Assembly (NCBI RefSeq): GCF_037038585.1 | Contig: NC_092520.1 | Span: 151,651,104 to 151,715,103 of the forward strand | Direction of reading: 5' to 3' | DNA length: 64,000 nucleotides | Origin: Patagioenas fasciata | Lineage: Eukaryota > Chordata > Aves > Columbiformes > Columbidae | Shown here: positions 17,001 to 57,616 of the stretch, one piece after another | Numbering within the stretch: position 1 is the first letter of the stretch | Layout of the letters: each line of letters opens with the position of its first letter | Made by a program: the position numbers and the translations under genes | The notes under the pieces: model-generated | Seen by the model: only the letters and a program-made list of their open reading frames with translations | What the model was told of the DNA's origin: nothing | The model's database searches: none

Positions 17001-17140
17001 GGAGTAGAAAGCTGGACGTCCCTTGTACTGAATGTACCTGGGATAACAATTAAAAGGCTAAAAGCTTAGGTCTGCGAGACAATCACAAGTCTATATAAAA
17101 TAAAACCGGTCTACACAATTTCTCTGGTGGGGGTGTCACA
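11023..17140. other. Non-coding DNA, nothing recognised
   Basis: AT-rich sequence without a supported exon, repeat family or RNA gene. A purine-rich tract lies near 14270-14310. As with the stretch to its left, synteny suggests MICAL3 intronic DNA read on the minus strand, but the sequence itself does not prove it. Confidence 0.4.
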
Positions 17141-17149
17141 AACTACCTG

Positions 17150-18750
17150 GGGATGGAAGCACCAGGAACATTTTATGACACTGTGACAGTCATGGCTGCC
17201 AAGTCTCCCTGCGGTGTGAGGCGACCTGCACAGCAGCCACCAGCGATGGGGTCGACGAGAAGGAGCCGCACGGCAGCACCGGGGCGCCCAGCGGGGCACA
17301 GTGCTGCCGCGAGACCACGCTGCAGGGGCGTCCCCGCCGCCCTCCCGCAAGTGACCTGCGCCCACCTGGCACAGCCGCCGCCGCCTCCTCCACCCCCAGC
17401 CCGGGACGAGGGGACGCAGGTGTCTTTCACTGAACCACCCCCCTCCGGCGAGGGAGCGCCCGGGGTTCCCCTGGGAGGACGCGCGGCAGTCACCGCCTCG
17501 TTCCTCCCCGGCGCCGAGCCGTGTAATCGGGTCAGGGAGCCGGCAAGGACCAGCCGCGGGCCGCCTCGGGGATCGGGTTTCGCGGCCGTGCCCTGCCACC
17601 CTGTGCCGGCCCCGGCCGCTCCCTGCGGGCGCGCACGGCCCTCGCCCCGGCCCGCTGCCGCGCAGAGACCCCCGTGCTGCTGCCAGCGCCCGCGGCGTCG
17701 CGCCAGGCCACTCCCGGGGCGATGCCATGGGATGAAGCGGATCCTCCGCCGCCCCCGCGGGAGACGCCTTCCCCCGCCCGCGCGGCCGGGCAGCGGCCAC
17801 CGCACCTGCCGCACGGCGCCGCGCGGGAGCCCGCCCTCCTCCCCTCCCCGGGGAGACGGCGGCGGAGAGACCCCCACCGCCACACTTGCCTTCGCTTCAT
17901 GCTGCACTAGGTGCGGCGGTCGCGGGTCTGACGCGGCCCGAGGTGCCTCTGCGGCGGGGGGCGCCGCGCTGCGCCCGTCAGGCTGCCGGCGCGGAGCGGC
18001 ACGGCCCGACCCTGCCCGCCGCGGGAGGGGGCGGGTGAAGCGGCGGCGCGCGAAGCGGCAGCGCGCGCGCACCTTGGCAGCTACCACCGCTTCAGGGATC
18101 GACCCCGCCCCGCGCGCGGAGCGGTTGGAGAGGCGGGAGGAGGAGCGCGCGCGGGCGAGCCCACTCCTCCCCACCCACCCACCCGTTGGTTGAAAGTGAT
18201 ACACGGGTCGAGGGGAGAGTGGTGGGAAGCGGAGGGTCCAGCCGCGCGGGCCCACGGTGTCCTACAGGAGGAGGAGAAAGGAAGGAGAGCGACAGCAAAG
18301 GAAACGCACCACACGCGGCGGCAAACAGTAAAGGGACACTCGATTCTCCCCACGCAGCGCCTTCAAGTTCTCAGATCCTCCCCCGCTCTCTGGCAATGGT
18401 ACGCTCCTACCGCGCGAATTGCGCAGGGATTGGCCTCCCTGGCGGGGTGGGGGCGGAGTCAGGGCGCGCGCCAAACGCGACTGGAGGAGCGAAGATCAAA
18501 AAAGGGGCGGGGCCAAGCGGCAGCCGTTTAAAGCGCCCCGGGCTGGGTTAGTCTTCGCGTGCGCGGCCGCGCGCGCCGGGGGTGAGGTCTGTCACCCAGG
18601 CGCGCGGAGGGCCGTTGGGGCGCGCCCCGGTCAAGGTGCTTGAGGGGCTGGAGGGCGGGCGCGCCGCCCCGGGCCTTCTCTCTGTGCCTGCTTCTGTCAC
18701 GCTTGCCCAGGCGAGCGGGCCCCCCGCTGTTACCCACCTCCTCGAGGGGG
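17150..18750. promoter_or_regulatory. CpG island, probable MICAL3 promoter and first exon
   Basis: An abrupt change from AT-rich DNA to about 1.6 kb of GC-rich sequence crowded with CpG (for example the GCGCGCGC runs near 18060 and 18560). It includes several GC boxes, a CCAC-repeat patch near 18170-18183 and NotI/BssHII-like clusters. This is the signature of a housekeeping-type vertebrate promoter. In mammals the next gene upstream of PEX26 is MICAL3 on the opposite strand, so this is most simply its untranslated first exon and promoter (inference). Long frames on both strands here (up to 360 codons) are products of GC content: they are Pro/Arg/Gly/Ala-rich and show no MICAL or other domain. 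I could not fix a first-exon donor because several candidates fit on the minus strand. Confidence 0.7.
18429..18560 (+). promoter_or_regulatory. Possible plus-strand core promoter within the CpG island
   Basis: Reading rightward there is an inverted CCAAT box (ATTGG, 18429-18433), a GC box in GGTGGGGGCGGAG near 18445-18458, a consensus Sp1 site GGGGCGGGGCC (18504-18514) and a TATA-like TTTAAA (18527-18532). The order and spacing suit initiation near 18555-18560. A candidate splice donor (GGGGTGAGG) follows near 18580. This would be divergent to the inferred MICAL3 promoter and could start a long non-coding RNA. CCAAT and GC boxes work in either orientation, so direction is uncertain. Confidence 0.35.
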
Positions 18751-18759
18751 AAGCGAGTA

Positions 18760-19440
18760 TTTCCCGTTCGAAGTAAACCTGCTGCCGACTAGAATACTGC
18801 AAAAAACTGCCCCTCCCCCCCCAACACCCCTCCGGGCAAAGCCACTGCAGCCCTTCCAGATGAGGCAAGAACAACGAGGGTCCTCTTGGCAGGGCGGGGA
18901 GCTGGAACAATAGGCACCGCCACACAAAGCGCTGCCTGTCAGCGAGGCTCCTGGCACGAGATGAGGTGCATGCTTGGAACGTTTCCACATGCACTTCGCA
19001 TATGAGTGTGAAACGCTGATGAAGCCGAGAGCAGGAGACATGGCATGTAAGAAATCGGCAGGAGAAAGCTGGCAAATCAGATCTAAAAATGGCTGGAGAG
19101 ACGCTTGTAAAATCGTCATGAGAAAGGGCTAAATATATTTTTGGTTTGGGGTTGGTTGGGGAGAAGCTTGGCGCTGTGGTCATAGCAACTCCTCCTGTTT
19201 GGATCCTGCTGTGCTGGGGAAAATAGCTCATTGCCTGTGTCTCTGTGCAATAAACAAAATTACATCAGATGAATGCCTGTTCTCATTATCCTCATCTCCT
19301 GATAACTGAATCAACTTGGAAGACCCAAATATTGACTAATCCCTCAGGTTATGCTGAGATAATAGCAAAGGTACTGGATGGACAAGGAAATTACAAACCC
19401 CTGTTCTTCAAGAAAGCACTGAGAAGAATAAATCTTGAGT
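18760..19440. other. Flank of CpG island, nothing recognised
   Basis: GC content falls back to background over this stretch. I see no supported exon, RNA gene or repeat before the CR1 copy that begins near 19445. Confidence 0.4.
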
Positions 19441-40400: not shown

Positions 40401-43200
40401 ACCTCGGGAGGCCTTGTTACAGGTGCCTGTAACTCTAAACTCTCCTTGAACCGCCTGGCAGCAGAGGGAGGAGGGGAATTTGTGAATCCGTAGCTGATGC
40501 AGACACAAACAAGGCCCCTCTGAAACTCACTTTTCCTATGGAAAATCAGGATGACAGCAGCAAAAAACTCCTTGGCTTCAGATAAAAGGTGAGGAACCAG
40601 GCATCAACATCCCACACAAAATCCACTGTGATGCTCCCTCTTACTACCTGTCACTGACAGCAAGTTTGCTTGACTTTAGCTTTTCTGATTACTAGAAATA
40701 GTCATCCAGGAGCACAGGCAAACACACTGCCTTCCTCCAGCATTTGTGTAGTGCTATAGCCCTGCCACGTAGGCTAATTCAGATACAAGAGTGACTCTTT
40801 CAGCTTTAAAAGCAGCTTAAGCTGTTCGTATTTAAGGAAGGACAGAAAAAGAGCATAATTCTTATTTATCAATGAGCATCCATGTGACAGTTTGGTTCAC
40901 CAGCCCAAATGTTCTCAGGCTTCTCTCCATGGCTGGGCTGCACCTCCTACATTTGCAGCTCTGTGCCCTCCCAACTCTGCTGCTCCATGACCCTACATAG
41001 TAGGAGGAGGGTGCTGGGATGACAGATTGGGCTGACCAGCTGCACTTGACGTCACCCAGCAGAAGAGAGTCCACCTGCTGCATCTGGGCTGCACGAGGAG
41101 GAACGTGCCCAACTACAGGGGAGAGAAACACAGGCAGGAGCTGCTGCTGCCCAAGACAAGGCATTGTGTGTGCTCAACTCTGGAGCCTGAGCATCCCTTG
41201 TCTCCACTGAGATGACTGTATTTCGGAATGATTTGATTTTGCTTGTTGACAAATTGTCAATAAAATAGGTAATTGTTCCTGGCCTGAAGTTAAACAATCC
41301 TGTTACTGAGTCACTATTATTTGCAGGTGAGAGAGGTGCAACAGGCTTGGGCTTCGAGGCACCACACTGTCCCCTCTAGGAAGAAGGGTGAAGTACAAAA
41401 ACATTCTACCATGCCTTACAGAGAAATTAACTTTACCTATAATTACGGTTATTATGAGGCTGCTTGTTCCACCTCGGCTTCTTAAATAACCACACTGCAA
41501 CTCATACAGATCTTCTCTTTAGAGCAACTGCTATGTCTCCCCAACTCTTCCCTGCCTCTAACGTAACTGCACGAGTGTTGCAGCTCATGTATCTTTCCAT
41601 AAGTCTTTATTAATAAGGAGCATCTGCAAGGAAACAGGATCTGACTCACTCTACAGCAGCTGCTCCTGCTGCTCGCTTCCCCACCTGAAACAACAGTCCC
41701 CTGTTTCAAAAGTTGCCTCCATCGCAGCCAAATCCAACATCACCAGTGCAATGCTGTGCTGCTCTTCTAAGGGACAGAACATTATTGGCTTCTCCCCGTG
41801 GAAGAAACTCTTAAACCATATCTTTGCATGTTGCTAACTTACCTTGGTTTTTGTGCTGTCTCGCTCCTTTTCTGAGTCTCAGTGGAGAGTATCCAGCCAG
41901 TGTGAGTCTTTTTCAAAATTGATTCCTTATCCATATTTGGGAATTTGTGCTGGGCATTAGCTGGTACAAGGCATGTTCTTCCCACAGTGCACTTTGGGAC
42001 TTGTAGTTCCCAAAAAGGAATGTTGTTTTCACAATTGCAAGCACCAAGCAACAGAAACAGAAGTCTGAAACTCTACCTCTGCCTTTGCTTAGCTGCTGGG
42101 CCCTTCCTTTTGCAACGTTTCCGTGCTGTGGTTTTGCCTTAACCAGCCTGAATCCTCCAGGAATTTCTTCCACGGCACAGTGAGCAAACCCCTAGGATGT
42201 AGGCTTGTGTGAAAGCTGCTACTGCAGCGTGCTCTGGCTGCTACCATGCGGGGCAGGTGTGTGTGGTCCTGCCTCCTGTAAACAGCTACTTAGAAAAAGA
42301 GAGTTATGATCAACTTTTTAATCATACTCTCCGTGCTTTATTTCCTTCTTCCAAGGCTGAAATGGCATAGAAACAGCTTTTTAAAACGTGTGTTGTGCTT
42401 TTAAACACAGTGTTAGCACATTTGATTTTTTAATTAAATGATGATATCAGGGTGTCAGCATTACAAAATAAATAAATCCTGCCTCTTCTGTAGATTCATT
42501 TTTGAAGAGAGTTTTCACTGACTGCCATAATTACCTTGTAACCAAGACACCCTATTGTTTTCAAATAACAACTAAAGAAGAATGTGAATCATTGCCTGTA
42601 GGGTACTGATGGAGACGCTGCTATCATGCCCAAACTCCAGTTCCTTTAACAGCATAACATGCTTCAAACTGTGGACAGAGGATGACTGAGGAAAAGGCCC
42701 ACGAGGAGACTTTTGTCCCAAAAGCAGAGTTCTTTACCCAGTGTGTGAGCAGCCGAATATACACACAGAGTCCAGATACCGTTTTCTTATAAGATTGTGC
42801 AATATCAGATGCTAGGTGGTAAAACAACAAAGCTAGCACACCTGAAACAAGCTGCATATTTATACATTTCAACTTTTAGCCACTCCTAACATCTTATACA
42901 CATTTATGCCTACTCAAAGTTCATTGCTCTAAACTCTGCTTGCTTCAGTGTAAAGGTACATTCTACTTTTATTCTTCTACGTGTGTTTAGTGAGTACTGG
43001 CATTTTCTGAGTAGGGGGCATTTTTTGAGTCTGAAGTCTTTACCGTCCTTACCTTTCCCAAAGTTACTGTCGATTTCTGCCAACTTCACGCTTCTTGGCA
43101 AACATCACCTGTTAATTCCTTCTGGGGCAGGATAGTCCTCTCTTATCAGTCTTTTTCGTTCCTCATAGACGATTTAACAGTCGTTAAAACTTGAGTTTCT
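37418..43200. other. Intergenic DNA upstream of PEX26
   Basis: No supported exon. A second consensus cAMP-response element (TGACGTCA, 41047-41054) lies in a slightly GC-richer patch at about 40.9-41.2 kb. The rest shows no repeat or RNA gene that I recognise. Confidence 0.4.
41047..41054. promoter_or_regulatory. Consensus CRE (TGACGTCA)
   Basis: Exact palindromic CREB/ATF core about 3.4 kb upstream of the PEX26 start codon, within the sequence CTTGACGTCACCC. Function is unproven. Confidence 0.3.
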
Positions 43201-43209
43201 CATTGAAGA

Positions 43210-43618
43210 GAGTCGAGACATCAGGGCCAGGAAAGGAAGGCACCACCATCCCGCCCAGGAGCCCAGCAGAGTAGTGGGGGAGCGCTCTCCCTTCGCTACC
43301 TGCCCCAACCCTCTCCTGCGGCAGGCCCGCAGCCCTCATGTCTCGGGGCCAAGCTGCCGCCTCCAGGGCGCGTTGCTCGGCCGGGACACGACTGGGCTGG
43401 GCTGACGCCCGGCGGCCGGGGCGGGGAACAGCAGCGGCTGCTGCGGAGGTCTGACCCGCCGGCTGGTGGGGGCGGCCGGGGCGGAGAGCGGCGTCTTGGG
43501 CGCTTCCCCTGGGCAGCCACGCGAGTGAGACACCGAGGGGGGGTTTGGCAGGGACCGGCACCGATCCCCGCCCGGCACGGCTGAAAGCGTCATGATCCCA
43601 CACCCTGCGGCTGCAGCT
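43210..43618. promoter_or_regulatory. Distal half of the PEX26 CpG island
   Basis: GC-rich, CpG-dense DNA (for example GGCGGCCGGGGCGGGG near 43412 and again near 43470) that stops exactly where an antisense CR1 begins at about 43619. It resumes in character after that CR1, at about 44115. I read it as one ancestral promoter island split by the insertion. A 163-codon minus-strand frame across it is Ala/Pro/Arg-rich, crosses into the CR1, and is not supported as a protein. A divergent non-coding transcript from this side is possible. Confidence 0.6.
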
Positions 43619-44105
43619 TAGAACCATAGAGGAGTTTGGGTTGGAAGGGACCTTTGGGTTGGAAGGGACCTTCAAAGGTCATCTAGTCCAACCCCCTGCC
43701 ATGAGCAGGGACATCTGCAACTAGATCAGGTTGCTCAGAGCCCCGTCCAGCCCGGCCTTGAATGTCTCCAGGGATGGGGTATCTACCACCTCTCTGGGCA
43801 ACCTGGGCCAGTGTTTCACCAACCTCGTTGTAAAAAATTTATTCACCATGTCTGGCCTGAATCTCCCCTCCTTTAGTTTAAAACCATTACCCCTTGTCCT
43901 ATTGCACCAGGCCCTGCTAAAAAGTCTGTCCCCATCTTTCTTAGAAGCCCCTTTTAAGTACTGAAAGGCTGTAATAAGGTCTCCCCAGAGCCTTCTCTTC
44001 TCCAGGCTGAACAACCCTAACTCTCTCAGCCTGTCCTCACAGCAGAGCTGTTCCAGCCCTCTGATCATTTCTGTGGCTCCTCTAGCCCCTCTCCAACAGG
44101 TCCCT
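43619..44105 (-). mobile_element. CR1 LINE 3' fragment inside the PEX26 CpG island, antisense
   Basis: About 485 bp. The plus strand opens with the degenerate antisense tail GAACCATAGAGGAGTTTGGG, then GGTCATCTAGTCCAACCCCC. It runs back through the antisense coding end (minus-strand frame with [19 protein letters not shown]) to CTCCAACAGGTCCCTG near 44105. An exact 18-bp tandem duplication (TTTGGGTTGGAAGGGACC at 43635-43652 and 43653-43670) is present near the element's 3' end. It sits about 395 bp upstream of the PEX26 ATG. Confidence 0.93.
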
Positions 44106-44114
44106 GTCTTTCCC

Positions 44115-44498
44115 CGGAGACCCCACTTTTAACCGCTAATCCTCGCTGTGCCGCGGCCCCCACTCGGAGAAACCAACGCGCCGACGAGCGGCCGCTGATC
44201 CCAGCTCCCTCCCGCCAGCGCTGCACTACATGTCCCGCCGGCCCGCGGGCGGGGAGGTGTCCGCTGGGGCGGCCCTTCCGCTGCCGGGCGGCGCAGGGGT
44301 TCCTTCCCGGCCGTCCGGGACCGTGGGAGGCCGCGCTGCTGCCGCTGCCTGCCCGAGCGGAGCCGAGCGCCGGGGAGGGCGGTGGCGGCGCGGGGAGCGG
44401 TGGCGGCTCTGGAGCCGGAGCCGGGCGGGCGGCAGGCAGTGGGACGCGGGGAGGGTGGCAGCGGCAGCAGCTCTCTCAGTAGCCCTCCCGCTGCCGCC
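44115..44498 (+). promoter_or_regulatory. PEX26: PEX26 proximal promoter and 5' UTR (CpG island)
   Basis: Dense CpG sequence directly upstream of the PEX26 start codon, with GGCGG and GCCGG repeats and no TATA box, as expected for a broadly expressed housekeeping promoter. The transcription start cannot be placed exactly. No in-frame ATG occurs upstream in the open stretch (the codon at 44382 is GTG), so translation should begin at 44499. CpG richness continues through exon 1 into intron 1 to about 44750. Confidence 0.7.
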
Positions 44499-44659
44499 AT
44501 GAGGAGCGAGCCTCTGGCCTGGCCCCCGGTCTCGGCCACGGCAGCCTCGCTGCTGGAGGAGGCGGCGGACCTGCTGGTGCTGCACCGGGACTTCGCCGCT
44601 GCCCTGGAGAAGTGTGAGGCGGGCTGCGACAGCCTGGGCCCCGGGACCGGCCCCGAGAG
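44499..44659 (+). CDS. PEX26: PEX26 coding exon 1
   Basis: Residues 1-53 plus two bases of codon 54. Donor GAGAG|GTGCGAG. GC-rich and inside the CpG island. Intron 1 (1,266 bp) holds an AT-rich tract and a sense CR1. Confidence 0.92.
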
Positions 44660-47600
44660 GTGCGAGCGGGTGTCGGGCCTGCGGAGCGGGGACGGGGCGG
44701 AGCGGGGACGGGGCGGCGCTGCGCGGCGGCTCGGTATCGCGTCAGCGTCCGGCTGGCTACATACCCGTCTGCACTGCCTGTCGTTTTACCTTATTTTAAT
44801 AGAAAGGCTTTTGTGTTGAATGATTATTTTTCTTTTTTTTTTTTTTTTGAGGGTTAGGGACCTCTTAGGTTTGAATATAAATATTATAATATTGATATAA
44901 TATTATAATTAAGAATATTATAATATAATTAATATTAGGTCGAGAGAGGTTCTCCTTCCCCTCTACTCTGCCCTGGCGAGACCGCATCTGGAATATTGTG
45001 TCCAGTTCTGGGCCCCTCAGTTCAACAAGCACAGGGAACTGCTGGAGAGAGTCCAGCGCAGGGCAACAAAGATGATGAAGGGAGTGGAGCACCTCCCTTA
45101 TGAGGAAAGGCTGAGGGAGCTGGGTCTCTTTAGCCTGGAGAAGAGGAGGCTGAGGGGTGACCTTATTAGTGTTTAAAAATAAAGGGTGAGTGTCAAGAGG
45201 ATGGAGGCAGGCTCTTCTCAGTGACAACCAATGGTAGGACAAGGGGTAATGGGTTCAAACTGGAACACAAGAGGTTCCACTTAAATTTGAGAAGAAACTT
45301 CTTCTCAGTGAGGGTGACAGAGCACTGGAACAGGCTGCCCAGGGTGGCTGTGGAGTCTCCTTCTCTGGAGACATTTAAAACCCGCCTGGACACATTCCTG
45401 TGTAACCTCATCTAGGTGTTCCTGCTCTGGCAGGGGGATTGGACTAGATGATCTTTCGAGGTCCCTTCTAATCCCTAACATTCTGTGATTATCTGTGTGA
45501 ATGGCAGTAGCACCAGTGGCTCTTGCCATGGTTTTCCTAGCTTTTTTTCTTTATTATCTAAATTAATAGAGGGTAGCGCTTATTGCTGAAAAGCGAGTTT
45601 AAAACCTGGCTTGGCTTTGGCTGCTAGCTGAGAACAGCCTGTCTGTATTTACATGTTTCGTGTGAAGGAATCTGTGCACGTTTGAAGGCAGCAAGGTGAG
45701 CCTAGTAGCCTTTCCAGCACCATTCTAGAGATACAGACTCTATGCATCTTTTTGGGGGGTTGAATGTGCCTTTTTTTTGGGGGGGTTAGGGGTAGAGGGT
45801 AACGGAAAGCAGGGGAAGCAGCTGTCAGAGAGCTGTAAAGTACCAAGGCTGGGATGCAGCTGGAAGGGATGTGAGGGGCAGTGTGGTTGTAAGAAGCACT
45901 TATTTAGTTGTCTCTTCATTGCCAGTTCTGCAGAAGTGAAATGCTCCCTTTGTGTTGTGGGAATTCAGGCACTGGCTGAGATGAACCGGTGGAGAGAAGT
46001 TCTGTCTTGGGTCCTACAGTATTACCATGTCCCTGAACATCTGCCTCCAAAAGTTCTTGAGCTGTGGTGAGTTTTTCTCTGTGGCTGTCAGATATACACA
46101 GGGTTCATGTTAAGTTTAATAGCAGGCCAGACTTGAATATTGCATGATATTTTCACTTTGCATGGTGTAGGTGAGGATGAAACCAGGAACAGGCCTGTTC
46201 TCGACATGTGTGTGCTGGAGTAAGCCTCCAGATTGCTTTATGATAAAGTACAAAAGGAGTGATGCCAAGAAAGTAACAGCAGTGGCTGCACCTATTGTCT
46301 GCCTCAGAAATCTGTGTTTCAAGTGCAGACCGTGATACATGCCTTGATGATAGCTGCCTGTGGGTAGTAACTGTCAGTGACCTCAACTTTTACAAAGATT
46401 TAGTGTTTTCTAATATTTCTACCTTATACTTCAGTATCCTGTTATATAGCAAAGTTAGAGAGCCCCAGGTGATGCTGGAGGTTTGCAGTAGCTGGCTGAG
46501 ACACCAACCCAACAAGAGCCTCCCAGAGTATGGTGCATTGCTGGAGCTCCACTTGTTGCACGTGTTGCTGCCGCTTGGCCGGTTTGAGGGGGCAGAAGAG
46601 CTTGTACGCGGCTGTGATGCTTTTGACAGTGAACAGCAACTAGCGTTTCTTGGGACCATTTGTGAAAGCCGATGCCAGTGGACTCAACGGGAAGAGATGC
46701 ACGCAGCTGTGGAAGAGAAGCAAGAGGCTGCAACAGAAACTATTTTGGGTAAGCTTTCCCTCTGGTGTTTGTGCTTCTCTTCTTTTTTATAATCTTGTTT
46801 CAGGTTAGTTGGTCCCTTGCTAACAAAGGGTAGCAAGTATGAACCATGTATTAAGAATATTGTCATGACAAACCAGCCATGAGGAAGTCCTATTGTGTAT
46901 CATGGAAGGCAACAGAGGACTTAGTGATCCATTTGCTGACAATTAAAAGCGTATTTAGTCTCAACCAATGTCAAGATACGAGAATTATTTTCCAGGTTCA
47001 AAAGCACTTCAGAATAAATGTTTTTTTGGGTTTTTTTTAAGTTACAAAAGGGAAACTAAAACTACCTAGTGATCCTTTAAGGGTACATTTTGTTGTCTCT
47101 GTGCACTCTCTGCTTCGTCTCCCCTTACATTTGAGCCCATATAGAGCAATGCTTGTCTGGCACTTCAAGTACTGCTGCTTCTCCAGAACAGTAAATCACT
47201 TGACGTTATCTCACAGGAGAGAAGTTGGCACTACTGTGGTATAAGATCATATTATACTATAGTAGATACCTAACAAAAAGGTATAATATAATTAATTGCA
47301 TTACAAAATTGTACTGGTTCCCTATTATTAAAAAAAACATCAAACAACCCAACTCTCATGCTATCAAACTAAGAAGAATCTTACTTTAGTATCTTAGTTT
47401 CTTATTATCTGTATCTATGTGATTGCTTTGCTTTGCTTTACTTTGCCCTTACTGCCTGTCTGTTCTTGCATTCTAGGTGCTCTGTCCCAAAAGCTCTTGA
47501 CGATGTTGACATTGCTACGTAGAACACTGAGGTCCATGTCGAGCCATTTCTATTTACTTCCTTACAAAAAGATGTTCTTGGCTACTTTTCTGCTTTACCT

Positions 47601-48238
47601 GGTGGTGGTGAGATTAGACCCAGGTACAGTGTTAAAATTTCCAATTGTTTAAATTCCATTATGGTTACAGAGAAGAGAATAGGTTATTTTAATAGATGTA
47701 ATTTGTGTAAATGTTTTATCTTTGAGAGACACAAAAACTGGGTGACTAGGAACGTACAGTCAGGCTTGTTTCTAGTGTTTACAGTTGCAATTCATATGGA
47801 AAGATGTAGCTCTACAGAAGCCACTTTTCTTAAAACCATTACTCCACCCTCAGCTCTTTGCAACATACAAGGTACAGGCTGTGCAAGGCAGGCTGAGCTG
47901 TCCTAGACTCAGCCTCTACCTCAGTCAACTTGAGGTGCTATGAGGTGAATAAAATACTGAAGGCTTGCAAGGGATGGGAGTGATGCCTCAAGCAAAGGCC
48001 CAAGTACTGAACCAAGTGGAAGTAATAGAACTAGGTTTCGATTAACTCTAGTTGGGATTAGTTTGTTCTTAATATGTGTAGCGTATCTTAGTTTTACCTT
48101 TTATAGTGAAAGGCTCTTTTGCTTTGTTCTGCAGCTTCTCCGACATCACTGCCGTTCATTTACAAACTGGTCCAGCTCTTCCGACAGGCTTGGGCAGCTG
48201 TATTTTCTCCTGTCCATAGGCGTCCCGTTCAAGACTAA
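44499..48238 (+). CDS. PEX26: PEX26, peroxisome assembly protein 26 (five coding exons, 288 aa)
   Basis: The coding sequence joins 44499-44659, 45926-46066, 46435-46748, 47477-47623 and 48135-48238. All introns are GT-AG and all phases match, giving 867 nt with stop. PEX26 is a tail-anchored peroxisomal membrane protein that recruits the PEX1-PEX6 AAA ATPase complex, which recycles the import receptor PEX5. Visible family hallmarks are [20 protein letters not shown] near the N terminus (PEX6-binding helical region), [17 protein letters not shown] and [11 protein letters not shown] in exon 2, [11 protein letters not shown] and HVLLPLG in exon 3, and a basic motif plus hydrophobic anchor at about 236-252 ([17 protein letters not shown]). 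A short luminal tail rich in aromatic and basic residues ends RPVQD. Human PEX26 is 305 aa. The ATG has a strong Kozak context (GCCGCCATGA). The third exon is the most conserved by eye. Identification is secure from sequence and synteny. Confidence 0.95.
44830..44937. repeat. T run and AT-rich tract in PEX26 intron 1
   Basis: A T run near 44833-44848 and then, from about 44871, a degenerate ATATTATAAT-type low-complexity tract ending exactly where the CR1 begins. Confidence 0.7.
44938..45491 (+). mobile_element. CR1 LINE 3' fragment in PEX26 intron 1, sense
   Basis: Starts near GGTCGAGAGAGGTTCTCC, a common internal CR1 position. It continues through the coding end ([19 protein letters not shown] in frame) and finishes CCCTAACATTCTGTGATT near 45491. 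Same subfamily as the antisense copy at 19.4-19.8 kb. It accounts for 554 of the intron's 1,266 bp. Confidence 0.93.
45926..46066 (+). CDS. PEX26: PEX26 coding exon 2
   Basis: Acceptor TTGCCAG|TTCTGCAG and donor GCTGTG|GTGAGT. It completes codon 54 as Ser and encodes residues through 100 plus two bases of Cys101. A second AG six bases downstream would break the frame, so 45926 is the supported start. Confidence 0.93.
46435..46748 (+). CDS. PEX26: PEX26 coding exon 3
   Basis: Acceptor ACTTCAG|TATCCTG and donor TTTTGG|GTAAGC. Residues 101-205 plus one base of Gly206. It encodes [12 protein letters not shown] and the conserved [16 protein letters not shown] block. Confidence 0.95.
47477..47623 (+). 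CDS. PEX26: PEX26 coding exon 4 (membrane anchor)
   Basis: Acceptor ATTCTAG|GTGCTC and donor GACCCAG|GTACAG. It covers residues 206-254, with the basic KK at 236-237 and the hydrophobic tail anchor at about 238-252, which PEX19 recognises for targeting in characterised orthologues. Confidence 0.94.
48135..48238 (+). CDS. PEX26: PEX26 coding exon 5 and stop
   Basis: Acceptor TTCTGCAG|CTTCTCC. It encodes residues 255-288, beginning (A)[16 protein letters not shown], and ends GAC TAA at 48238. The [13 protein letters not shown] part closely tracks the human C terminus; the last dozen residues diverge. Confidence 0.94.
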
Positions 48239-51991: not shown

Positions 51992-51994
51992 ATG
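51992..51994 (+). CDS. TUBA8: Tubulin coding exon 1 (ATG only)
   Basis: Alpha-tubulin genes characteristically have a first exon whose coding part is just the start codon, spliced to CGTGAG. AAAAC-ATG|GTAAGA is the only site in the upstream 3 kb that I find with this layout, a good Kozak base (A at -3) and a strong donor. Intron 1 would be 1,340 bp. The 5' UTR presumably lies in the preceding 50-150 bases. No TATA box is evident. Confidence 0.75.
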
Positions 51995-54900
51995 GTAAGA
52001 AGAGAAACAGATTGTTTTATGAGATAACGAGCAGTGAGTTTGGCCCTCTGTTTCCCCCTAGTCAGGTCAAGATGTGAGTGAAGGCAGGAAGGTTGAAGTG
52101 ACTTTTTTTGCTTCGTTTTGGGGGCAACAAATATTGCCCACAGTGTACAAACTATTGTATTAGCTTATTGGTAAACAAATTTGGAGTCCAATATGTACAG
52201 CTGCGTTTGTGTTCATAAATTTGTTGTAAGCGAAGTCACATGCAGGCAAAGAAGGATGGGGTTGGAATTTATATTTCCTTTTTGGGTGGAAGCTCCTCTG
52301 GATGTGCCTTGAATACAGTATGTTGAACCCTCTATTAATGGCCTTTTCCTACTAGATTGTGAGTATTAAAACTAAGAACAAAGAAATGTGGACATTTCCC
52401 TGGAAACTCCATAAGACAGGATGGGAATCGTCTGCCGAAAGATTCATATTCAAATATAGCATGTCCAACAAGAATGTTTTTGAGACAACTCTTTAAATTC
52501 ACAGTACTTGGGATCCTGCATAGCAATCTGCAGGAGGAATTGTGCTGCTTTTTCTAATAGAATATGATATTATATTTTGTGTTTCTGATTTCTGTTACTA
52601 AACTAGGTACTTGACACAGTAATGAACACTTCAGAAACTGGTTATTGACTGAACACCCATGATTACAGAAGCCTACGTATGAGAAGAATTTATCAGGAGA
52701 TTAATTTAATCTAACATGTAAAGAGTGCCAAGTCCTCTTGAGTATCAAGTTAGCTCTTCACGTGTTAAATTGAATTAAAAGTACCCAGAGAATGGGCTGA
52801 AACAGTGGTTGAAATTAATTAAAGTACTAAAGGCACTTTAATTCTAGTTCCTTTAATTTCTACAAACCTGTTCTCCACCTGTCCAACACACATGTTCAAC
52901 AGCAGATCGAAAGATCAGAAGATACTTTGTTACCTTTGCTTTATCTAGATATCAATAAGTCAGTCTTCTCCCAGATAACTGGACTTGGCTCACAGTCCTT
53001 GGCTGGGACCTACTATTGTTTATTTTGTGTACCTATACACAGTTTTTCTATCTGTATGGGCTTATGTGCACTTACATGTAGATCCCATGTGCTGTACACC
53101 ATGTATAGGCATGGCTGCATATCTCTAGCTGTTGTGATTATTGCTTCTTTCTACGCACAGCAAAATATTTTTCTTCCTATTTGTAAATAAGTGTCAGAAT
53201 ATTTTCCATTAATCCCAGTCTTGTGGAAAATTTTGTAATCATTCGTTGATTTGGGGTTTCAAGTAAGATCAGCTTGTAGAGACTGAGGATATTCACTGTT
53301 TCTTCTCACTGTTTCACTTGTCTCCTCCTTCTAGCGTGAGTGCATCTCTGTTCACATTGGCCAAGCTGGAGTTCAAATTGGCAACGCATGTTGGGAACTC
53401 TTCTGTCTGGAGCACGGTATTCAGCCAAACGGCACTTTCACCGACCAACCCAACAATGATGACTCTTTTGCCACATTCTTCAGAGAGACAAGTGCTAGAA
53501 AATACGTGCCCCGGGCTATTATGGTGGACTTGGAGCAAACTGTAATAGGTCAGTATAGAACTAATATTAATTAACTCTTCTGGGTGCCAAAGTTCAGATT
53601 GCTGAATAGCAGGACAATGCCCTGTCCATTAGGGATGATCCCAAAATGCAGGCAAAATGTACAGATTTTAAGTTTTTAATACCAGATATTACTAAAAGCT
53701 CTGTTATTCTCGATGAAAAGATGAAAACTGGACTGCATGCTGTCATGTGTGCTCTACTAATCATTAATAAAATCAAAAGTTCACTGTTGCTTAAACCTCC
53801 ACAAGATATGAGTACAATTTAGCTTTCTTAAAGAAATTCCTTTCTGGTATATTTTTTTTTTTTGTGATGTTGTTTTTCCTTTGCTAACAGATGGAAAATG
53901 CTTTCCTCCACATTCATATGTAAGAGACAAGCATGAAGAATCAGACAACAGAAGTGTCCTGACAGATTTTCAGGGGAAACCACAGTTTTGCTCTTGCAAA
54001 TCTCCTCTTTTTCCAGTCATTGTCCTGAAGGTTCTAATGGATCTTCATCTGATCAGTATATAGAGTGGAAATTTTACCACAGCATGGCACAGCCCTCCTG
54101 TGATGAACGAATTCATTTGTATAACACAGCAGCTTACACTTAGAGCAGAGTCCACTTCTTTTTTTCAATACTGAGAACATCTCAGAATATACTCCTTACC
54201 TCTGTACTTTGTTTTTCAACATACAGGTCTTCCATAGCATTTTCTGCCAACATAAAATGCTCCATTTGTTTCGCAAACCCTACCAGCCTTGGTGAATTAT
54301 CTCTTCCAAGCTTATGCTTTTTCTCTCTTGTGCAGATGAAGTGCGGACTGGCACCTACCGGCAGCTTTTCCATCCAGAACAGCTGATCAGTGGAAAGGAA
54401 GATGCAGCAAATAATTATGCACGTGGCCACTACACCATTGGCAAAGACAAAATCGACAAGACATTAGATCGTATCCGCAAGATGGTATGCCCTATTATAT
54501 TGAAAGCAAGACCTTAGGAGAGTGGGAGGGGAAATAAACACCACATACTTTTTTTTTTTTGATAGTGGCTCTTGTTTTGCATTTACTATTGTCATTGGCT
54601 CAGAACAGAAAAATGCAGGCCCTATCCCATCTTGGTTTTCATATGAATGAAAGACTTAAATGCAACATCTCAAATATTACTACAGCATTATTATTGTAAG
54701 AAAAACATCAATATTGTTCTATTGATGCGCTAGCCTGACATTTACAGGGGAAAAGAGACAATGAGAATTTTCTGGGAAGACTGCTGACTTTTGTGTTGTG
54801 CACTGGGTGTGGGTGTTGCTCGCTCTGTCTGAGGGTATAATTTAAAGATATGTTCACTTATTCTTTCACTTTTCCTGTTGGCTTCCAGGCTGATGCCTGT

Positions 54901-56612
54901 TCTGGGCTGCAAGGATTCCTGATCTTCCACAGCTTTGGTGGGGGTACTGGCTCTGGCTTTACCTCCTTGCTGATGGAACGCCTCTCCATGGATTATGGAA
55001 AGAAGTCCAAACTGCAGTTTGCCATCTACCCAGCTCCTCAGGTCTCCACCGCTGTGGTGGAGCCCTACAATTCCATCCTGAACACGCACACCACTCTGGA
55101 GCATTCGGACTGCGCATTCATGGTGGATAATGAGGCCATCTACGATATCTGCTGTCAAAACCTGGACATCGAGCGTCCCACTTACACTAACCTCAACCGC
55201 CTGATCAGCCAGATTGTCTCCTCCATCACCGCCTCGCTACGCTTTGATGGTGCCCTCAATGTGGATCTGCCAGAGTTCCAGACAAATCTGGTGCCCTACC
55301 CACGCATCCACTTCCCCTTAGTGACCTACGCCCCCATCATCTCCTCTGACAGAGCATTTCATGAGCAGCTCTCGGTGGCTGAAATCACCAGCGCCTGCTT
55401 TGAGCCCAACAACCAGATGGTGAAGTGTGACCCAAGACAAGGGAAGTACATGGCCTGTTGCTTGCTCTACCGTGGTGACGTAGTCCCCAAAGACGTCAAC
55501 ATAGCAATTACTGCCATCAAGACCAACAGATCTGTCCAGTTTGTTGACTGGTGTCCAACAGGCTTCAAGGTGAGTGCAGCTGCTGTGAATTTCTCTTTAA
55601 TGTTTAAAGGACAACTTCAGTCTAGCAGAAAACTTGTACTTAAAGTTCTAATCTTGCATGTTTTGCACTTGTAAGAAGAAATGTAAGAAAGGTCTGTGTA
55701 TATAAAACGTGCCTTTTCTCCTTTGGACAACACATTGACACAGACTACGAAATATTTAAATAAATGGGAACATATACAGTATTGCTATTTTCAGTAACAG
55801 GAGAATGTCAACCCCATAAGACTTTAAATTTAAATAAATTGCATTTTGGAAGAAAGATCAATGCAAGGTCTATACTCTGAAGATGCTGAGACACTGGAGA
55901 ATGTCCTTCATGAGATTTTAAAAAACAAACCACCCAAACAAAAAATCCCCAAAGTTATCGGTGCTGTATTGTAGGCAAGTGAAACATTTCTACATCTCCA
56001 TGGAGAGAGATTTTTTTCATTGTCCCAAATTTTCCCATGCCTTCTGACATATTTGTATGAGTTTTTCTTCATTTAGAGTCCAGTTCTGGTTGTTTTCCCC
56101 TCTTTGTTTTTTTACCTTGAGTGAGGGTAAGGAATTGACTTGTGCACAGAAAAATAGCTTGAATGGCATTAGACTTAACACTGATGTGATTTTGGTTTTT
56201 CCCTACCTCTTTTCCTCCCCCCACCAATGGTTTTACAATTTCCTTACCCTATTTATTGTTCAATTTTGTCCTTTTCTCATAACTCTTTTTATTCCTCCAT
56301 ATTTTCTATTGATATTTGCAGGTTGGGATCAACTATCAGCCTCCTACAGCTTCACCAGGAGGAGATCTAGCCCAAGTTCAGCGAGCAGTCTGCATGCTGA
56401 GCAACACCACGGCCATTGCAGAGGCCTGGGCGAGGCTGGATCACAAGTTTGATCAGCTGTATGCCAAGAGAGCTTTTGTGCACTGGTATGTGACTGAGGG
56501 CATGGAAGAAGAAGAATTCTCAGAGGCCCGAGAAGACCTGTCTGCCCTGGAGAAAGACTATGAAGAAGTGGGAACTGACTCATATGAAGAAAATGATGGA
56601 GAGGAATCTTAA
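51992..56612 (+). CDS. TUBA8: Alpha-tubulin, TUBA8 type, divergent (five exons, 445 aa)
   Basis: The coding sequence joins 51992-51994, 53335-53548, 54336-54484, 54889-55569 and 56322-56612. All are GT-AG with matching phases. Alpha-tubulin pairs with beta-tubulin to build microtubules. Seen here: N-terminal MREC (recognised in tubulin mRNA autoregulation), the signature GGGTGSG at 139-145, and the catalytic glutamate equivalent to E254 at 251 (VDLPEFQTN). C-terminal [20 protein letters not shown] and an acidic tail are also present. The split after CPTGFK is the TUBA8-type intron position. Oddities: three residues are missing in the H1-S2 loop and no lysine stands where K40 is acetylated. 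ICCQ replaces ICRR at 209-212, LEQTV replaces LEPTV, WYVTEG replaces WYVGEG, and the last residue is Ser instead of Tyr or Phe. The frame is intact, so this looks like a functional divergent isotype. Position next to PEX26 supports TUBA8; it may be the TUBA8B-like member of a tandem pair. Confidence 0.9.
53335..53548 (+). CDS. TUBA8: Tubulin coding exon 2 (K40 loop deleted)
   Basis: Acceptor CTTCTAG|CGTGAG and donor GTAATAG|GTCAGT. At 214 nt it is 9 nt shorter than the usual 223-nt alpha-tubulin exon 2, matching the three missing residues in the luminal loop. Residues 35-45 read [11 protein letters not shown], with no lysine. Confidence 0.93.
54336..54484 (+). CDS. TUBA8: Tubulin coding exon 3
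   Basis: Acceptor TTGTGCAG|ATGAAG and donor AAGATG|GTATGC. It is 149 nt, the standard length. It encodes [20 protein letters not shown] and [20 protein letters not shown]. The segment after YTIGK is more divergent than in common isotypes. Confidence 0.94.
54889..55569 (+). CDS. TUBA8: Tubulin coding exon 4
   Basis: Acceptor GGCTTCCAG|GCTGATG and donor TTCAAG|GTGAGT. 227 codons carry [27 protein letters not shown], the T7-loop glutamate and [10 protein letters not shown]. The coding sequence has higher GC than the introns. Confidence 0.96.
56322..56612 (+). CDS. TUBA8: Tubulin coding exon 5 and stop
   Basis: Acceptor ATTTGCAG|GTTGGG. 96 residues starting VGINYQPP and ending in the acidic tail [16 protein letters not shown], then TAA. 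The terminal aromatic residue used in the detyrosination cycle is absent. Confidence 0.95.
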
Positions 56613-56837: not shown

Positions 56838-57616
56838 TGTATGAGGTTCAACAAGGCCAAGTGCTGGGTCCTGCACTTGGGTCACAACGACCCCAGGCAG
56901 CGCTACAGGTTCGAGGAGGAGTGACTGGAGACCTGCCTGGCAGAAAAGGACCTGGGAGTGTTGATTGACAGCCGGCTGAATATGAGCCAGCAGTGTGCCC
57001 AGGTGGCCAAAAAGGCCAACAGCATCCTGGCTTGTATCAGGAATAGTGTGGCCAGCAGGACTAGAGAAGTGATTGTGCCACGGTACTCAGTGCTGGTGAG
57101 GCCCCACCTTGAATCCCATGTTCAGTTTTGGGCCCCTCATCATAAGAAGGACATTGAGGTGCTGGAGAGAATTCAGAGGAGGGTGACAAAGCTGGTGAGG
57201 GGCCTGGAGCACAAGTCTGATGAGGAGCGGCTGAGGGAACTGGGGCTGTTTAGCCTGGAGAAAAGGAGGCTGAGGGGAGACCTTATCGCTGTCTACAACT
57301 ACCTGAAAGGAGGTTGTAGCATGGGAGTGGTCTGTCTCCTCTCCTGAGTAGCAAGTGATAGGACAAGAGGAAATGGCCTCAAGTTGTGCCAGACGAGGTT
57401 TAGATTGGATGTTAGGAAAAAATTTTTCATGGAGAGGGTTGTCAGGCATCAGAACAGGCTGTCCAGGGAAGTGGTGGAGTCACCATACCTGGAGGTGTTT
57501 GAAAACCATTTAGACAAGGTTCTTAGGGACATGGTTTGGGCTAGAGTTAGGTTATAGTTGGACTTTTTGATCCTGAGGGTCTCTTCCAACCAAAACGATT
57601 CCATGATTCTATGCAG
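56838..57616 (+). mobile_element. CR1 LINE 3' portion downstream of the tubulin, sense
   Basis: The longest CR1 copy, about 780 bp. It starts near ATGAGGTTCAACAAGGCCAA and includes the C-terminal reverse-transcriptase region (frame with [20 protein letters not shown] and [19 protein letters not shown]), broken by stops at 56922 and elsewhere. It ends AACGATTCCATGATTCTATG near 57616. Different subfamily from the four shorter copies, as shown by the GAGGGTCTCTTCCAACCAAA end. It lies in sense orientation between the tubulin stop and the first good polyadenylation signal, so it is probably part of the 3' UTR. Confidence 0.93.

Follow-up and report, generated by a model that had tools for sequence, protein, structure and literature searches.

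Gene content of the window

The window, by which we mean the whole 64,000-nucleotide stretch of Patagioenas fasciata DNA analysed here, carries an alpha-tubulin gene and, upstream of it on the same strand, PEX26 (Table 1). The tubulin gene consists of an ATG exon and four more coding exons separated by GT-AG introns, which together form 445 codons followed by a TAA stop; its spliced product matches the Pfam profiles Tubulin (PF00091, 1.5e-61) and Tubulin_C (PF03953, 8e-52). PEX26 is represented by five collinear pieces matching PF07163 (44496-48235, profile 22-300 of 302), and its stop (48238) falls about 3.75 kb ahead of the tubulin ATG. The window gene shares this neighbour with human TUBA8, which in the human gene order lies between PEX26 and USP18. 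PEX26, TUBA8 and USP18 are named together in the published literature, as established by text match; USP18 was not recognised downstream by eye among open reading frames of at least 60 amino acids up to 60 kb and of at least 28 amino acids at 58-64 kb.

The start of PEX26 lies in a G+C-rich segment (43001-45000; 0.58 and 0.64), and a 16-base tandem repeat is located inside that segment (44681-44716). A strong G+C-rich island, in which no exon was identified, occupies 17001-19000 (0.71 and 0.68 per kb, the neighbouring kilobases having 0.36 and 0.42); it is perhaps the promoter of a gene to the left of PEX26, such as MICAL3, which holds that place in the human order. What we take to be CR1-like retroposon fragments are found at 56925-57600, just past the tubulin gene, with a similar piece at 44913-45400 in a PEX26 intron. 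Their translated pieces (56925-57347 and 44913-45173) gave no Pfam match, and the CR1 end word, present twice in the window against 0.56 expected, is not clearly above chance, 12 of 100 shuffles having at least two copies. No Rfam family reached its gathering score within the window, and no tRNA was detected there.

Table 1. Coding features of PEX26 and the alpha-tubulin gene in the window (slashes mark exon borders)
Feature	Positions	Strand	Evidence
PEX26 first coding piece	44496..44657, approximate	+	PF07163 1.7e-13, profile 22-66 of 302
PEX26 second piece	45933..46067, approximate	+	PF07163 4.7e-26, profile 80-123
PEX26 third piece	46430..46789, approximate, frame probably overruns exon	+	PF07163 6.8e-30, profile 124-229
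PEX26 fourth piece	47485..47649, approximate	+	PF07163 2.8e-14, profile 226-278
PEX26 last piece with stop	48113..48238	+	48113-48235: PF07163 2.6e-08, profile 271-300
Alpha-tubulin coding exon 1, ATG alone	51992..51994	+	AACATG/gtaagaag
Alpha-tubulin coding exon 2, 214 nt, holds shortened loop	53335..53548	+	ccttctag/CGTGAG ... TAATAG/gtcagtat, translation
Alpha-tubulin coding exon 3, 149 nt	54336..54484	+	Spliced frame
Alpha-tubulin coding exon 4, 681 nt, with GGGTGSG and E254 equivalent	54889..55569	+	Spliced frame, alignment
Alpha-tubulin coding exon 5, 291 nt including stop	56322..56612	+	Spliced frame; tail without terminal Tyr/Phe, K370 equivalent is Q

A shortened, lysine-free loop in an intact alpha-tubulin

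Residues 35-45 of the tubulin, encoded in exon 2 by bases 53434-53466 (translation, bases checked), form a loop that has proline as residue 40 and lacks lysine altogether. Aligned with TUBA1B, TUBA1C, TUBA3 and TUBA4A, this loop is three residues shorter; the placement of the gap within it is arbitrary, MAFFT setting it at canonical positions 42-44, and the shortening coincides with the site of the K42 of mammalian TUBA8. The earliest lysine in the window protein is residue 57, which matches canonical K60, so that K60 is kept. At 9 bp the difference is divisible by three; the frame is preserved and the gene otherwise intact. The first-pass annotation, which had read a shortened loop with P40 and no lysine in an intact gene, is thus borne out on both counts, by the exon 2 translation and the alignment with the four isotypes, and by the 445-codon open frame with splice signals at every junction.

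Outside the loop, the equivalents of the catalytic E254, of the nucleotide-site residues E71, D98 and T179, and of H283 are all preserved in the alignment. The same alignment reveals several departures from positions that are otherwise unanimous. Next to E71, P72 of the DLEPTV motif, a proline in all five comparators (the four isotypes above and human TUBA8), is replaced by Q (CAA, 53536-53538), and the arginine pair 214-215, equally unanimous among the five, is changed by R214C and R215Q (55153-55158). Further such replacements are K280R, Y282F and K370Q, the last at the equivalent of a residue named as acetylated in the available part of PMC11006419. The protein ends in GEES, with serine as its last residue rather than a terminal Tyr or Phe.

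Affinity with TUBA8

All five comparators used in placing the gene were mammalian, and the letters of human TUBA8 among them are provisional. They agree with the A40, K42 and terminal Phe reported in the accessible portion of PMC5384676 and with the tail FEEENEGEEF of PMC7464520. With TUBA8 letters of this kind, the best identity of the window protein is to human TUBA8 (388/445, 87%), as compared with 377-380 of 444-445 for TUBA1B, TUBA1C, TUBA3 and TUBA4A; the margin above the canonical isotypes, resting on these provisional letters, is only about 2 points, and the window protein differs from those isotypes by about 15%. Among the best 60 of 66 PDB sequences there was no TUBA8 chain, and the top match was alpha-1C.

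Across all columns, 27 residues distinguish the TUBA8 class. The window protein has 10 of these; at 6 of the positions it retains the residue of the canonical isotypes, and at the other 11 it shows a gap or a residue found in neither. When the loop is excluded, 408 columns are unanimous in the four canonical isotypes; TUBA8 departs from them at 16 and the window protein at 42, with joint departures at 10 (hypergeometric P 2e-7), seven of which show the identical residue in both (positions 24, 67, 130, 270, 275, 293 and 299). We considered whether shared TUBA8 residues could by themselves establish the class and rejected this, given a leave-one-out control in which five of the nine departures of TUBA3 were also found in TUBA8 (TUBA4A, 3 of 10; TUBA1C, 0 of 4; TUBA1B, 0 of 0; window protein, 10 of 50). 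As such sharing is not exclusive to the window protein, we relied instead on a count of isotype-private residues and on a tree. Outside the loop, the window protein possesses 7 of the 16 residues private to TUBA8, as against 1 of 4 for TUBA1C, 0 of 3 for TUBA3 and 0 of 5 for TUBA4A, TUBA1B having none. In a small, unrooted FastTree tree of six sequences, with mammalian comparators, provisional TUBA8 letters and the loop columns removed, the window protein pairs with TUBA8 (support 0.995), with a long branch of 0.10 for the former and one of 0.03 for the latter.

The loop itself points in the same direction as the private residues: T, F, Q and ND are common to the window protein and the mouse peptide TFGTQASKIND quoted in the part of PMC5384676 at hand. 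The window protein resembles human and mouse TUBA8 in having lost K40, in a TF..Q loop start that runs into NDD, in lacking a terminal tyrosine, and in the private residues. It differs from the mammalian forms, which by the excerpted account have a normal-length loop, A40, K42 and a Phe end, in its loop shorter by three, the lack of any lysine there, the Ser end and K370Q. Two of the absent features, the terminal Phe (Ser here) and K42 (no lysine precedes residue 57), we treat as mammalian details rather than as class-defining for TUBA8. Taken together with the PEX26 neighbour, the gene is most probably TUBA8.

Probable history of the loop and competing explanations

According to the accessible text of PMC5384676, human and mouse TUBA8 lack the K40 peptide, having alanine at 40, lysine at 42 and a terminal Phe instead of Tyr. 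Because TUBA8 is already without K40 in mammals, we read the absence of K40 in the window protein as a feature of the class and not as an effect of the 9-bp difference. The first-pass annotation had concluded that the isotype cannot be acetylated at K40; that consequence holds for a loop predicted from the sequence to be lysine-free, and what falls away is the implied surprise, since A40 was on record for the mammalian proteins. The K40 absence is hence known for the class, and what is particular to the window copy is the lack of K42, the shorter loop, the terminal Ser and K370Q. From this comparison of sequences we infer an order of events in which the loss of K40 is probably older than the shortening: TUBA8 would have replaced K40 early, and in this lineage the loop would later have been cut by three codons, with K42 also gone and Ser as the end. 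An intact TUBA8 orthologue with such a history is the explanation in which we have high confidence.

A bird counterpart may have been known for decades. In 1987, Pratt, Okamura and Cleveland described a divergent alpha-tubulin of chicken testis whose gene encodes no C-terminal tyrosine, a likeness to the window protein that goes as far as the citing description in PMC9081340. The window gene could be the orthologue of this chicken gene, a proposal that is compatible with TUBA8, as both may be one and the same gene. The missing terminal tyrosine and the divergence of about 15% from the canonical isotypes speak for it, as do the citation of the chicken isotype and the use of TUBA8B as a chicken spermatid marker in the portion of PMC12690856 available, and we lean slightly towards accepting it. 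Among the open-licence literature matches listed (titles and abstract starts), none concerned a bird TUBA8 with a shortened or lysine-free loop, and the available part of PMC11791314, which covers chicken erythrocyte alpha-1/beta-1 tubulin, has no bearing on the TUBA8 loop. A gene labelled TUBA8 is listed in PMC11432639 among those for turkey seminal plasma phosphoproteins.

A different possibility is that the gene is a relic losing constraint in one lineage, with a loop shortening that was neutral. Such decay would fit the changes at positions on which the comparators agree (P72Q, R214C, R215Q, K370Q), a branch to the window protein roughly three times as long as the TUBA8 branch, and the fertility of the Tuba8 knockout mouse (PMC5384676, as excerpted). 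Moreover, in simulations of neutral point change, with indels and splice sites left out, 8.3% of 2000 runs ended without a stop when 57 replacements were made, and 30% of 2000 when the number was 28; the open frame alone is therefore weak evidence of selection. Nevertheless, splice signals at all junctions of an intact frame, 87% identity to mammalian TUBA8 (by the provisional letters) and the retention of the nucleotide-site residues argue against a relic, which we regard as unlikely. Less probable still, to the point of being hardly credible, is the removal of the 9 bp by a sequence or assembly error: an in-frame error is compatible with a single sequence, but the gene is otherwise intact, its difference of 9 bp is divisible by three, and the remaining loop residues are of the TUBA8 type. 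For this last reason, one would not expect to find K40 even if such an error had occurred.

Predicted behaviour in microtubules

The window protein should assemble, given that the nucleotide-site residues and H283 are kept, and with its nucleotide-site and lateral-contact residues retained it would join ordinary microtubules. The engineering of recombinant tubulins with a hexahistidine tag within the K40 loop (PMC9096264, in the part available), like the His insert in the K40 loop of PDB chain 8ixf_I, suggests by analogy that the loop tolerates changes of length. The short loop of PDB chain 9umu was dropped as a precedent, for it may only reflect residues omitted from the deposited sequence. 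As the loop offers no lysine, ATAT1 could not mark the protein, and as the terminal serine leaves neither Tyr nor Phe to remove, it would be no substrate for detyrosination; judging from its residues, the protein should resist acetylation in the loop as well as simple cycling of tyrosine. Its incorporation may accordingly be pictured as giving rise to patches, or whole microtubules, insensitive to marking by K40 acetylation and by tyrosination.

TUBA8 is known as a tubulin of testis and muscle. To judge from mouse and chicken, spermatids are the likely site of action of the window protein, and perhaps muscle. In the available text of PMC5384676, mouse TUBA8 was seen in spermatids and was absent from shed spermatozoa, and mention is made of a report to the contrary, which places TUBA8 in the flagella of human sperm. 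A more ambitious reading, which we advance tentatively and consider rather doubtful, is that birds, or one bird group, conserve an alpha-tubulin blind to the acetylation and tyrosination marks, whose loop was shortened under selection so as to alter lateral contacts or the binding of luminal proteins in spermatids. If this were true, it would furnish a natural loop-shortened isotype for probing roles of the K40 loop beyond acetylation. Likewise, were the short lysine-free loop common to birds and constrained across them, it would amount to a natural experiment, within TUBA8, in which the structural role of the K40 loop could be told apart from acetylation; otherwise, the window gene is an ordinary orthologue in a class already known to be without K40.

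Alpha-tubulins lacking K40 also occur in the flatworm Fasciola hepatica. The excerpted account in PMC3820024 gives Asn at position 40 for isotypes 4 and 5, which in this respect resemble the window protein, and a one-residue loop deletion for isotype 4. These flatworm isotypes are presumably of separate origin from TUBA8 and, unlike the window protein, isotype 4 keeps a lysine at 39.
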